Source of the DNA: Pseudochrobactrum sp. sp1633
GTDB lineage: Bacteria > Pseudomonadota > Alphaproteobacteria > Rhizobiales > Rhizobiaceae
Assembly: GCF_030376605.1 (NCBI RefSeq)
Contig: NZ_JARRAE010000001.1
Span: forward strand, 186,001 to 250,000
DNA: 64,000 nt
Direction of reading: 5' to 3'
Shown here: piece after piece, positions 1,490 through 48,510 of the stretch
Position numbering within the stretch: position 1 is the stretch's first letter
Layout: every line of letters begins with the position of its first letter
Made by a program: the position numbers and the translations under genes
The notes under the pieces: generated by a model
Told to the model about the DNA's origin: nothing
What the model saw: the letters and a program-made list of their open reading frames with translations, nothing else
The model's database searches: none

Positions 1490-1837
1490 TCAAGCATTCG
1501 ATTTTGTCTGATACCAGATATATCCGATACCAATTATGGCTACGAATGGTGCAAAGCCCCATAGCAGCGCATTGATGAAGACTTTCAGGAGCATCAGGAT
1601 CAGTGCATTCATAAAGAATATATTTTGACCCATGATGAGGTTTTTCAGCTCATCCCAGACGAGTTTTGAGAAGGGGAACATGATCGTGCAGACTGCAAAA
1701 TATAGAAGCGGGGCGAACTGAGCACCATTTTTAGCCTGAAGTGCTACCGTTACCATCAGAGCAAAAAAGCAAGCACCAATTAACCAGGCACGGATCAGAT
1801 ATTTACGCTCAACACCATTTAGAATACGCCCTAACAT
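1490..1837 (-). CDS. Small hypothetical membrane protein
   Basis: A 115-residue protein I do not recognise. It has a short charged N-terminus (MLGRILNGVERKYLIR) followed by three or four hydrophobic segments at roughly residues 15-33, 41-57 and 74-108, so it is an inner-membrane protein. A clear Shine-Dalgarno sequence (GAGGT) lies five bases before the ATG, and a terminator follows the stop. The layout with a long hydrophobic body and alternating short polar turns recalls the many small rod-shape or phage-holin-like membrane proteins, but no family mark is convincing. Confidence 0.65.
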   Translation of the reverse strand: MLGRILNGVERKYLIRAWLIGACFFALMVTVALQAKNGAQFAPLLYFAVCTIMFPFSKLVWDELKNLIMGQNIFFMNALILMLLKVFINALLWGFAPFVAIIGIGYIWYQTKSNA

Positions 1838-2049
1838 TTTACCTCAATCATATTTTGTTTATCTTGATACGGTGGGGCGTATAACCTTCAGGTATCAAAA
1901 GTGTAAACAAATGAGATAATCAGATATCTTTAAAACTTAACAAAAGTGCTGATTTAAGTGCAAGGCATGACCTCAGCAGAATGTGTTCAGGCTCAGTACA
2001 TTTTTGGATGTTATAATAACGGACTATAATTGATCACAGGAAGTCAGGT

Positions 2050-2373
2050 ATGAATTCAAAATCCATCATGATTGCTTTGGCTCTCATTACGTTTCCGATT
2101 TCGGCGCAGGCAACAACAGGCCCAGGATGTCTTCGTGTTGTGAATGTTGCAGCCGGTGATGCGTTGAATGTGCGTGCGAAACCATCCGCACAGAGCAGAA
2201 TAGTCATTTCAATTCCTGCAAACAATTATGGTGTACTGGCTCTTAAAGGCGAGTGTGGTCCGAAAACAATTCCTTGGGGACAGCGCTGGTGCCCGATCAG
2301 CTATTCTTATGAAGATGGTATATTGCATGGTTTTGTAAAAGCTCGCTTTGTACGGGATCAGGAATGCCCTTAA
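2050..2373 (+). CDS. Small secreted SH3b-like protein
   Basis: A 107-residue exported protein. Residues 1-21 are a Sec signal peptide with an AQA cleavage site. The mature part carries the bacterial SH3 signature LNVRAKPSAQSRIVISIP (about residues 39-56), as in periplasmic SH3b domains that bind peptidoglycan or other ligands. Four cysteines (27, 69, 81, 106) could form two disulfides. The start is set by AGGAAG seven bases upstream. The gene stands alone with a terminator about 120 bases downstream. Function beyond the fold is unknown. Confidence 0.75.
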   Translation: MNSKSIMIALALITFPISAQATTGPGCLRVVNVAAGDALNVRAKPSAQSRIVISIPANNYGVLALKGECGPKTIPWGQRWCPISYSYEDGILHGFVKARFVRDQECP

Positions 2374-2789
2374 TAATAGGGGGATTTTGGTCAGTCAGAG
2401 CAGATTTCGCACAAATTTAAGGTCGCTTTGATGCTTGTCTTCTTCGCTTCTCAAGACGCAATCCCTTGACCGCTCACTCATAATTTTTCAGTGCCCCGCC
2501 AAGAGCGGGGCTTTTTATTGGCTGAAAATAGAGAGAGTGAAGATACTTGAGTTCGGGTATACTCTGATTGCTTGTGCGGGTTTTTCAGGGTGTTGAACTG
2601 TCTCCTCAATGTGGACAATTAAGGCGATAATCAAACTATTGTGCTTCAAAATGTGAACAGCGTGTTTGCTCGCCTGAGCATTGCAACTTATCAGAGATAG
2701 AGCGATGTATAGGTTATCTGAGAGTAACCGCTACGCCTGTTTTAAATGTCAGCAGACTATTTCGCGGTACATGAACGGGGATGAATTTG
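2374..2789. other. Gene-less stretch
   Basis: About 415 bases with the terminator at 2493-2516 and otherwise no gene, RNA motif or repeat that I can support. The last part must hold the promoter of the VOC gene. Confidence 0.5.
2493..2516 (+). terminator. Rho-independent terminator
   Basis: GCCCCGC / GCGGGGC stem with a five-base loop, followed by TTTTTA. It lies about 120 bases after the SH3-like gene, the only plus-strand gene before it. Confidence 0.8.
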
Positions 2790-46092: not shown

Positions 46093-47493
46093 TTAGTTCT
46101 GCTCTTGCAGCCAGATTTTGAAGTCGCTCAGAGCGCGTGCGCTGAGGGCACGTTTTTTGGCCTGTGTCTTTTCTTTGCCGCGCAGACGCACACCTTCCTG
46201 TTTCGGAACTGTGACTTCAGGGAAAAGCCCGAAATTCACATTCATCGGCTGGAAAGAGCGTTTGCCCGGTTCATCATCGCTGACGAGGTGACCGCCGGTA
46301 ATGTGATTGAGCAGTGCGCCGAAAGCCGAAGTGACCGGCGGTGGCGGCAAAGTCCCACCACGCTGCTCCGCTGCCGCAAAGCGACCGGCAAGCAAGCCCA
46401 TTGCTGACGATTCCACATAGCCTTCACAGCCGGTGATCTGGCCTGCAAAACGGATTTGCGGGCGTGACTTCAGGCGCAGGCTTGTGTCCAGCAGGATTGG
46501 CGAGTTGAGATAAGTATTGCGATGCAAGCCGCCGAGACGGGCAAATTCCGCATTTTCAAGGCCGGGGATCATACGCAAAATCTGCGTCTGTTCGCCATAT
46601 TTCAGCTTGGTCTGGAAACCGACCATATTATAGAGCGTACCGAGCGCATTATCCTGCCGCAGCTGCACAACGGCATAGGCTTTAACATCAGGATTATGAG
46701 CATTGGTCAGCCCCATCGGCTTCATCGGGCCGTGGCGCAAGGTTTCAGGGCCGCGCTCTGCCATCACTTCAATCGGCAGACAACCGTCGAAATAAGGTGT
46801 GCCTTCCCATTCCTTGAATTCGGTTTTTTCACCGTCAATCAAAGCCTGAATAAAGGCCTGATATTGCTCTTTATCCATCGGGCAGTTGATATAATCTTTG
46901 CCGGTGCCGCCCGGGCCAACCTTGTCATAGCGCGACTGGAACCAGCAGACATCCATATTGATGCTGTCGAAATGGATGATAGGCGCAATGGCGTCGAAGA
47001 AGGCGAGGGAATCAGCTTCAGTTTCCTGTGCGATTGCCTCTGCTAGTTCTGCGGCAGTCAGAGGGCCGGTAGCAATAATTGTATTGCCCCAGTCTTCCGG
47101 CGGCAGACCTGCAACCACTTCACGTTTGATGGTGATGAGCGGATGCGCTTCAAGCTTCGCGGTAACAGCATCGGAAAAGCCGTCGCGGTCAACAGCAAGC
47201 GCACCACCGGCCGGAACCTGATTGGCATCGGCGCAAGCCATGATCAGCGAATTGGCAAGACGCATTTCCGCATGCAACACGCCAACGGCATTGGTTTCAG
47301 CATCATCAGAGCGGAAGGAGTTGGAGCAGACAAGCTCAGCCAGACCTTGCGTTTTATGCGCATCAGTGCCGCGAACGGGGCGCATCTCATGCATGATGAC
47401 GGGAATACCGGCCTCAGCAATTTGCCAGGCTGCTTCGCTGCCGGCAAGGCCGCCGCCGATGATATGAATTGGGGATAATGATGAACTGGACAT
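46093..47493 (-). CDS. trmFO: Folate-dependent tRNA (uracil-54) methyltransferase
   Basis: A 466-residue FAD protein that makes ribothymidine-54 in tRNA with methylenetetrahydrofolate as carbon donor. The FAD motif [21 protein letters not shown] opens the protein; CSNSFRSDD and the [23 protein letters not shown] region, with a conserved catalytic Cys, are typical of TrmFO (not the longer MnmG). The frame opens at 47529, but GGA before the ATG at 47493 and the family's start position favour the shorter form. It lies downstream of the DUF1127/small-RNA segment on the same strand, past its terminator. Confidence 0.94.
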
Positions 47494-47572: not shown

Positions 47573-47619
47573 TAAAAAAACAGCTCCGACGCAGGAGGGA
47601 GGGCGACGGAGCTGTTTTT
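47573..47619 (-). terminator. Terminator of the DUF1127/small-RNA unit
   Basis: Stem ACAGCTCCG / CGGAGCTGT with a T-tract of seven on the minus strand. The loop itself carries CCCTCCCTCCT, so the terminator is also a possible anti-Shine-Dalgarno hairpin. Confidence 0.9.
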
Positions 47620-47890
47620 AGGGATGGACTGATACGGGGGATATCAGTCAGCGCAGAATTGAGGATTTAAAGACGGGCTTTAAATCCGGCAGCGCTATGC
47701 CTGCTAAAAAACGGGAGGAGGAATAGCAGGCAATAGAACATGGCCGGTACGGGAGGAGGAATACCGGTCATGAAAGGGAGGATGTTTATTCCGTCTGCGC
47801 CAATTGTTCGTAAGAACCTGAACCGGCGCAGTTACCACTTGTTATCTGAGCTATCGCTGCCGGAAAATTCCGCAGCAGATAGTTTCAGAT
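47573..47890 (-). ncRNA. Hairpin array with CCUCCUCCC loops (CcsR/alpha-r14-like small RNA)
   Basis: On the minus strand, directly past the DUF1127 stop, a chain of hairpins follows: 47851-47882; 47796-47830; an open CCTCCC at 47776-47781; 47742-47769 with loop TTCCTCCTCCCG; 47698-47732 (nine-base stem TGCCTGCTA / TAGCAGGCA) with TTCCTCCTCCCG in its loop; 47663-47687 (stem GGATTTAAAG / CTTTAAATCC); 47627-47649 with loop TCCCCCG; and the terminator at 47576-47617 with loop CCCTCCCTCCT. CCUCCUCCC in loops is the hallmark of the CcsR RNAs of Rhodobacter and the alpha-r14 RNAs of Hyphomicrobiales, which in the former are cut from the 3' part of a DUF1127 mRNA. Number and ends of mature RNAs are unknown. 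Confidence 0.75.
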
Positions 47891-47892
47891 GA

Positions 47893-48045
47893 TTACATGC
47901 CGGCTGTGTTTGACTTGCGGGCGATGTAAGGAATGTCGGAGCGGGAGATACCGAGATCACCGAGTTCACGGTTGGACAAACGGTTCAGTTCGGAAACTGT
48001 GTCACGGTAACGGCGCCAGTTGTTGAAAGAGCGAATGATGTTCAT
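47893..48045 (-). CDS. DUF1127 small basic protein
   Basis: A 50-residue protein with the DUF1127 layout: NNWRRYRDTVSELNRLSNRELGDLGISRSDI in the middle, with the Arg-rich helix and the conserved ELGDLGI/SRSDI core (residues 27-39). GAGGG lies nine bases before the ATG. Small DUF1127 proteins in alphaproteobacteria bind RNA or affect phosphate and carbon traits, and in Rhodobacter such a gene (RSP_6037) heads the CcsR RNA transcript. The same order is seen here with the hairpin array 3' of the stop. The frame is too short for usual gene finders. Confidence 0.92.
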   Translation of the reverse strand: MNIIRSFNNWRRYRDTVSELNRLSNRELGDLGISRSDIPYIARKSNTAGM

Positions 48046-48510
48046 TTTTAAAACCCTCGATTGTGTTTAGTTGTGTTGTGTAATCTGTTGTCCTGTATAT
48101 AGCCCGTGCCTTTGGAAATGAGGAGAGACAAGATTGCATAGCTCCTCTGCGAGCCTTGCAGACCTCATTTAAACGATTTAAATCGCAGTTTAGCCGTATT
48201 TCGGGCAAAATTGACCTGATGCGTAATTTTTGTTCGCTAAAGAGCGACGGCGTGAAATTTTTGTACGGTTTGCGGGAGTTGTTGTCATGAAAATATCACG
48301 TATTGGTTGTGTGTGTTTCCCATGATTTCAAGAGCTATGCGCATAGGGTTAAGGCTATGGTTACTGTTTTATTAGACGGGATGCAGACAACAGGCATAAC
48401 GGCTATTGCATCCCAATTATTGAGTGCTTGAACCGGCCGGATTTTCGTGTGACCTTGCTCAATACACGTCCGGACATATCCGGCTTGTTTGCGGGGGGAG
48501 GTCAAGTCGC
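48046..48510. other. Gene-less stretch upstream of the DUF1127 gene
   Basis: About 465 bases between divergent genes. It should hold the promoter of the DUF1127/small-RNA unit; CTTGTC and TATATA elements exist on the minus strand near 48125 and 48096, but their spacing fits no sigma factor I can name. No gene is supported. Confidence 0.45.

Follow-up and report, generated by a model that had tools for sequence, protein, structure and literature searches.

What is made from a chain of hairpins that follows a short DUF1127 gene in Pseudochrobactrum sp. sp1633, and does this chain belong with the small RNAs that have been described behind such genes in other bacteria? The locus lies in a stretch of 64,000 nucleotides of contig NZ_JARRAE010000001.1, hereafter the window, and was first noticed in a sequence-only reading, which linked it to the CcsR and ar14 RNAs and their anti-Shine-Dalgarno motif. 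In excerpts of the published accounts, RNase E and CcaF1 take part in releasing the CcsR RNAs from the 3' UTR of the DUF1127 gene ccaF1 (PMC10253847, PMC8625941), and the name CIN1 has been given to DUF1127 genes accompanied by CcsR-like sRNAs (PMC10253847). Likewise as excerpted, ar14 RNAs are described as three hairpins with CCUCCUCCC (PMC10746234), a family of hairpin modules with CCUCCUCCC loops was described in 2011 (PMC3927594), and the 'cuckoo' family comprises RNAs of 2-4 hairpins (PMC4504443). The array in the window is probably a diverged DUF1127/'cuckoo' (CcsR, ar14) operon; most of its signature loops are altered, the arrangement itself being already known. In the literature listings and excerpts available to us, no title names the worn seven-hairpin form, and we make no claim that it is unpublished.

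The DUF1127 gene (47893-48045, minus strand) codes for a protein of 50 amino acids that matches PF06568 (E = 1.2e-16), has no match in NCBIfam and is identical in all seven genomes of the genus in which the locus was found (the window's genome and six congeners). The product is arginine-rich and most likely a small protein of the RNA-binding type; whether the partners of DUF1127 proteins are RNAs or proteins is disputed, according to an excerpt of PMC12501420. Upstream of the gene, and kept in the seven genomes, lie a Shine-Dalgarno-like site, GAGGG (48054-48058, minus strand), and a putative -10-like element, CTATAT (48097-48102, minus strand), without a clear -35; the same hexamer is also quoted for the ar14 RNA NfeR1 in the part of PMC10746234 that was available. 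No promoter of the DUF1127 gene was predicted in a sigma-70 scan, which did not report CTATAT either; near trmFO the scan gave one site, compared with a mean of 1.5 in shuffles. This downstream neighbour, trmFO (46093-47493, minus strand, the start codon being our choice), starts approximately 80 nt beyond the terminal T run of the array. Promoter block, DUF1127 gene and hairpins were all conserved in the alignments of the seven genomes. By eye, the DUF1127 promoter of another genome (G022, genus g17) is very similar to that of Brucella rhizosphaerae; since g17 is distinct from the window's genus (g1), the latter probably belongs to Brucellaceae but not to Brucella.

Seven hairpins (H1 to H7) were found 3' of the DUF1127 stop codon on the minus strand, the last one being the terminator with its T run, and the coordinates given earlier proved correct. 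On the basis of fold and alignment, H1 (47844-47890) has no C-rich loop and H2 (47795-47831) has a loop without the motif in the window, with CCTCC in four of the seven genomes; the loops of H1 and H5 are free of any motif. The linker between H2 and H3 contains CCTCCC in six of the seven genomes (47776-47781); this word, claimed to be unpaired, does lie in the linker (47781-47776), but the fold of the window's own sequence places it in a weak 3-bp hairpin. The loop of H3 (47739-47772), TCCTCCTCCC, is invariant in all seven genomes, while H4 (47698-47732) has CCTCCTCCC in the window only (1/7) and CCTCCC in every genome. Two identical loops had been reported, and TTCCTCCTCCCG is indeed present in 47769-47742 and 47732-47698, but the identity is confined to the window's genome (1/7). 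H5 (47650-47696) consists of an invariant outer stem, AGCGC/GCGCT, and a variable upper stem (47663-47687) that is AT-rich in the window; the AT-rich perfect stem at 47687-47663 had been taken for a hairpin of its own, but it is not the whole one, and the boundaries were set at 47696-47650 because it rests on the outer stem that is invariant in 7/7 genomes. H6 (47627-47649) has an invariant stem and, as had been seen (47649-47627), a C-rich loop, which contains CCTCC in three of the seven genomes and a C run in the others. The array ends with H7 (47574-47619), a Rho-independent-type terminator with the loop CCTCCCTCCT, in which CCTCC is found in seven and CCTCCC in six genomes; the earlier assignment of CCCTCCCTCCT to the loop of this terminator (47619-47574) was right. 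All seven hairpins are on the minus strand. The terminator rule of the sigma-70 scan found none at the array, because it allows loops of at most 8 and that of H7 measures 10.

The array region folds at -124.6 kcal/mol, compared with -73.75 +/- 4.3 kcal/mol for 100 shuffles (z = -11.8), and the seven hairpins folded one by one gave z values from -3.2 to -9.2. Counting both strands of the 64-kb window, CCTCCTCCC has two sites, both in stable hairpin loops of the array, and the control words CCCTCCTCC (reversed) and GGAGGAGGG (complemented) have none. The short word CCTCCC is less special than CCTCCTCCC: five of its eight sites in the window fall in hairpin loops, four of them in the array and one elsewhere (49761, plus strand), and the short controls CCCTCC and GGAGGG have three of six (two of those three inside the terminator of the array) and four of six sites, respectively, in loops of the same window. 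A chance cluster of hairpins is ruled out by the shuffled folds together with the word counts, and a protein-coding function of the array by the indels between the genomes, whose lengths, by eye, are not divisible by three.

A DNA search of 41 genomes revealed the whole stretch in the own genome and six congeners, whereas ten other genomes matched over the DUF1127 coding part; in all seven genomes of the genus the array is located before trmFO. Pair statistics were calculated on an RNAalifold consensus from which one long-range 3-bp helix was omitted. Among the 542 cells (78 pairs, seven genomes), 96.3% form standard pairs, compared with 30-41% when the 3' partners were slid by 1-3 columns, a control that leans towards structure because the structure was derived from the alignment itself. 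Nine of the 78 pairs changed on both sides (4.4 +/- 1.4 in shuffles), the covariation score was 0.136 (0.106 +/- 0.008 in shuffles), and the two-sided changes were distributed over four of the eight helices (H2, H4, the upper stem of H5, and H7). No pair of H1 or H3 changed on both sides among the seven genomes, and H6 and the outer stem of H5 are uninformative on covariation because they never vary; G004 and G006 have a different, shorter upper stem in H5. The sequence-only reading had proposed loop conservation and stem covariation in relatives as a check: the seven-hairpin fold and a C-rich core in the loops of H3, H4 and H7 are kept in all seven genomes of the genus, and covariation is supported by the two-sided changes but not by the further pair types, of which there were 22, no more than in shuffles (461 of 500 as high).

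The degree to which the loops are kept differs from hairpin to hairpin. Stems show a pairwise identity of 0.88 and linkers of 0.62 among the seven genomes, and the loops range from 1.00 in H3 (10 columns, invariant in 7/7) through 0.97 in H7, 0.91 in H1, whose motif-free loop is thus also well kept, 0.89 in H4 and 0.71 in H6 to 0.43 in H2 and 0.39 in H5. Judged from the alignment, the kept feature is a C-rich core in H3, H4 and H7 and not the identity of two loops. The full motif is present throughout the genus in one loop of the seven, that of H3, which suggests that within one genus the signature motif may erode in most loops of an array and yet persist unchanged in one.

In the covariance-model search that had been proposed as a check, the array remained below the Rfam cut-offs. 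No match to ar14 (RF02344) reached the cut-off of 58.8 bits in the whole 64-kb window; the array scored 29.6 and 26.5 bits in a 1-kb scan (E-values of 0.002 and 0.0097, with 0.006 for an unrelated snoRNA family on the other strand in the same scan) and 30.9 and 26.5 bits in a whole-genome search, in which four loci elsewhere in the own genome, including that of AbcR, gave 24.5-27.3 bits to ar14. The score for CcsR1 (RF02791) was 15.7 bits, compared with a cut-off of 65.3. The array is below the ar14 cut-off in all seven genomes, with 30.5-42.0 bits in six and no match at E <= 0.001 in G005. Of the sub-cut-off matches, one spans H5-H7 and another the linker to H4, and in G002, G004 and G006 two of them adjoin at the array, pointing to a worn tandem pair of ar14 units. 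The link to CcsR and ar14 drawn earlier was right in kind, given the CIN1 loci and a second DUF1127 gene with an ar14 match (see below), but the array itself lies below both cut-offs; curated models miss such diverged copies at their cut-offs. As to family features, ar14 RNAs have three hairpins each with an unpaired CCUCCUCCC, and the array has seven hairpins with CCTCCTCCC in H3 and H4 only; the motif feature is not strict, since the two RNAs of the genome above the cut-off carry a shorter form of it in their terminator loops. Compared with the Cuckoo definition, the window has five C-rich loops or linkers and covarying stems, with seven hairpins and the full motif genus-wide once. The layout of a CIN1 locus, a short DUF1127 gene and then CcsR-like hairpins on the same strand, is present.

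A PF06568 search of the window's genome gave two DUF1127 genes. The second one (G000:C4, L113) is located on another contig and codes for a protein 71% identical over 45 amino acids; it has a similar promoter block and is followed by three hairpins that match ar14 with 75.3 bits (cut-off 58.8), two of them containing CCTCCTCCC and the terminator CCTCCC. In addition, a solo three-hairpin RNA on C12 scored 76.9 bits. Outside the array, two ar14 matches exceed the cut-off in every one of the seven genomes, and their two scores hardly differ from genome to genome; for the six congeners we checked the match that adjoins the second DUF1127 gene, and the solo one was assigned by score alone. Rfam searches of loci covered 20 chosen of 119, plus another 13. 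A hairpin pattern search returned six matches, compared with four (uninspected) for the reversed control, and alone proves little. A worn array and two intact ar14 copies in the same genome amount to a natural test of which loops matter.

The presence of these intact copies bears on what the array may do. It could mainly serve as a folded 3' UTR that protects the DUF1127 mRNA from decay or keeps it apart from trmFO, its loops being inactive ar14 relics while the two intact copies do the work. In line with this, several loops have lost the motif within the genus while the stems were kept, and two above-cut-off ar14 matches are found elsewhere in each of the seven genomes; we nevertheless regard this reading as unlikely, since H3 is invariant, CCTCCC of H4 and CCTCC of H7 are present in 7/7 genomes although linkers are just 62% identical, and a plain stabiliser needs no loop sequence. 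It is also conceivable, if rather improbable, that the trmFO-linked array of this genus has become a separate regulator, with one full anti-Shine-Dalgarno loop, new short loops (CCCUCC, CCUCC, CCCCC) that would have other partners, and feedback on its own mRNA via the terminator loop, the ancestral job being left to the two intact ar14 RNAs.

Pairing of the C-rich loops in cis with GAGGG (48054-48058) of the DUF1127 gene, damping its translation, is quite improbable. Among six C-rich segments, the H7 loop (CCCTC, 47593-47603) paired best with this site (-10.7 kcal/mol), with the same energy as with a model Shine-Dalgarno sequence, and both GAGGG and the loop CCCTC are present in 7/7 genomes. 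However, the pairing comprises just 6 bp and its energy comes without a shuffled control, the start region of trmFO, which has no such site, gave equally low energies with H4 (-10.4 and -11.0 kcal/mol), and by eye the other array-linked DUF1127 genes (26 chosen loci) have no clearly complementary site.

To place the array in a wider context, 80 named trmFO loci, the best 80 of 591 found, were surveyed, hairpins being counted by one fold of up to 700 nt after each DUF1127 gene, ended at trmFO or at the next DUF1127 gene; the counts vary slightly with the stretch folded (three versus two in L038). In 69 of these best 80 loci a DUF1127 gene is located upstream of trmFO on the same strand, and in the other 11 there is none on that strand in the available flank (148 nt in L040). 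At least two hairpins with a CCTCC loop, ranging from 2 to 15, follow the DUF1127 gene in 28 of the best 80 loci, including Brucella rhizosphaerae (4), B. endophytica (3), Phyllobacterium (2-3), Mesorhizobium (6-9), Aminobacter (6), Pseudaminobacter (9), Aurantimonas (11 and 15) and Pleomorphomonas (9), whereas the Rhizobium, Agrobacterium, Sinorhizobium and Ensifer loci with DUF1127 have none or one. These data suggest that the order of DUF1127 gene, cuckoo-type hairpins and trmFO is of old standing in Hyphomicrobiales. They also rule out that long arrays are peculiar to the window's genome, and they qualify the earlier claim that the extra hairpins fall outside the textbook layout: arrays of 2-15 hairpins occur in 28 of the best 80 loci, but the loss of the full motif from most loops is unusual. 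Among the 27 array loci outside the window's genus within these best 80, 119 of 142 CCTCC loops have the full motif. All 15 CCTCC loops of the nearest relatives, Brucella and Phyllobacterium, are full, so wear in the window's genus is probably derived. Worn loops are also found in L037, L052, L066, L083 and L096, and the proportions of full motifs in L096 (0/3), L066 (6/15) and L083 (7/11) rule out that they are peculiar to the window's genome.

The longest DUF1127-linked arrays, with 9-15 CCTCC-loop hairpins, are those of Aurantimonas (L083, 1924-2480; L066, 1559-2258), Pleomorphomonas (L111, 2016-2480) and Pseudaminobacter (L044, 1287-1730), and they exceed the usual 2-4 hairpins; in L044 and L083 the three-hairpin ar14 unit is repeated, giving three and four adjacent Rfam matches, respectively. 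That the array is a sponge for a regulator, as proposed earlier, either a protein or a GGAGG-bearing RNA, rather than a repressor of mRNAs is very improbable and draws no support from the present results. Several loops share a short motif on one RNA and relatives have arrays of nine or more loops, but NfeR1, an ar14 RNA, uses the motif to silence mRNAs, as stated in an excerpt of PMC7143759.

A candidate for the control of the operon was found upstream of the gene. Excerpts of the literature give CAATGCAGCCATGCA (PMC12595884) and GCAT-N3-TG-N3-T (PMC7486931) as LsrB/VtlR boxes and report that LsrB activates the ar14 RNA NfeR1 (PMC10746234). The sequence CAGAGGAGCTATGCA (48135-48149, minus strand) is a candidate VtlR/LsrB-like box with 11 of 15 matches to the Brucella motif and the same letters in 7/7 genomes, and the degenerate box is present in the window's genus with one mismatch as GCATAGCTCCTCT (7/7 genomes). 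The match to the long motif is weak alone, the window having 38 sites with 11 matches and three with 12 (41 with at least 11), and it is not significant alone, as 7 of 200 shuffles were as good. On the question of whether the box goes with arrays, the 15-base motif gave, at the gene level, p = 0.055 for at least 12 matches and p = 0.00014 for at least 13. Among the best 80 loci, 23 of 28 array operons have the exact degenerate box 85-132 nt upstream of the start codon, and it is found within 200 nt in 33 of 63 arrayless DUF1127 genes (20 of 22 where the arrayless gene is the first of two), compared with 105 of 2800 control stretches. The 33 arrayless genes rule out that the box marks array operons only, and from its distribution LysR-type control looks like an old property of such DUF1127 genes and not of the arrays. 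An 8-bp inverted repeat, AAATGAGG...CCTCATTT, encloses the VtlR-like box (48116-48170, minus strand; by eye in 7/7 genomes) and may be part of the regulator site. Elsewhere in the own genome (L132), an AbcR/ar15-type RNA (1501-1612, 58.1 bits) adjoins a LysR-type gene (1780-2685, minus strand; PF00126, PF03466); in Agrobacterium, vtlR adjoins an AbcR/ar15 RNA, according to an excerpt of PMC7486931.

From the observed gene, hairpins, conservation and genome context we infer transcription, processing and targets as follows. The locus is probably a CIN1-type DUF1127/cuckoo-RNA operon, in which one transcript is processed to small RNAs that act on Shine-Dalgarno sites. A single transcript would start approximately 45 nt upstream of the DUF1127 gene, as judged from the -10-like element, and end at H7, perhaps activated by the LysR regulator LsrB/VtlR. 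Its 3' part may once have been two tandem three-hairpin ar14 units (H2-H4 and H5-H7), most loops of which would have shrunk in this genus from CCUCCUCCC to CCUCC(C) or less, H3 alone remaining full in 7/7 genomes. By analogy with CcsR1-4, the chain would be cut, probably by RNase E helped by the DUF1127 protein, and the resulting small RNAs would pair through their C-rich loops with Shine-Dalgarno sites of target mRNAs; masking of ribosome sites by such loops, as had been proposed earlier, is plausible on the same grounds.

As far as the excerpted accounts go, one of the closest known systems is the ccaF1-CcsR1-4 locus of Rhodobacter sphaeroides, which likewise consists of a DUF1127 gene followed by a same-strand chain of RNAs with C-rich loops and one terminator. 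Unlike CcsR1-4, the array of the window has seven hairpins with mostly shortened motifs, and its gene is preceded by a candidate LysR-type box (with one mismatch), in contrast to the RpoHI/RpoHII promoter described for R. sphaeroides. With ar14 RNAs such as NfeR1, as portrayed in the available excerpts, it shares C-rich loops in stable hairpins, a terminator in last position and the -10 hexamer CTATAT; ar14 RNAs carry the motif in each of three hairpins, whereas the array keeps it in one loop of seven across the genus and reaches about half the cut-off score. The Cuckoo RNAs and SmelA075 and SmelA099, in the excerpts of PMC3927594 and PMC4504443, share with the array a variable number of hairpins, stems that are free in sequence and C-rich anti-Shine-Dalgarno loops; Cuckoo RNAs have 2-4 motif-bearing hairpins, whereas the window has seven, most of them with a shorter motif or none.
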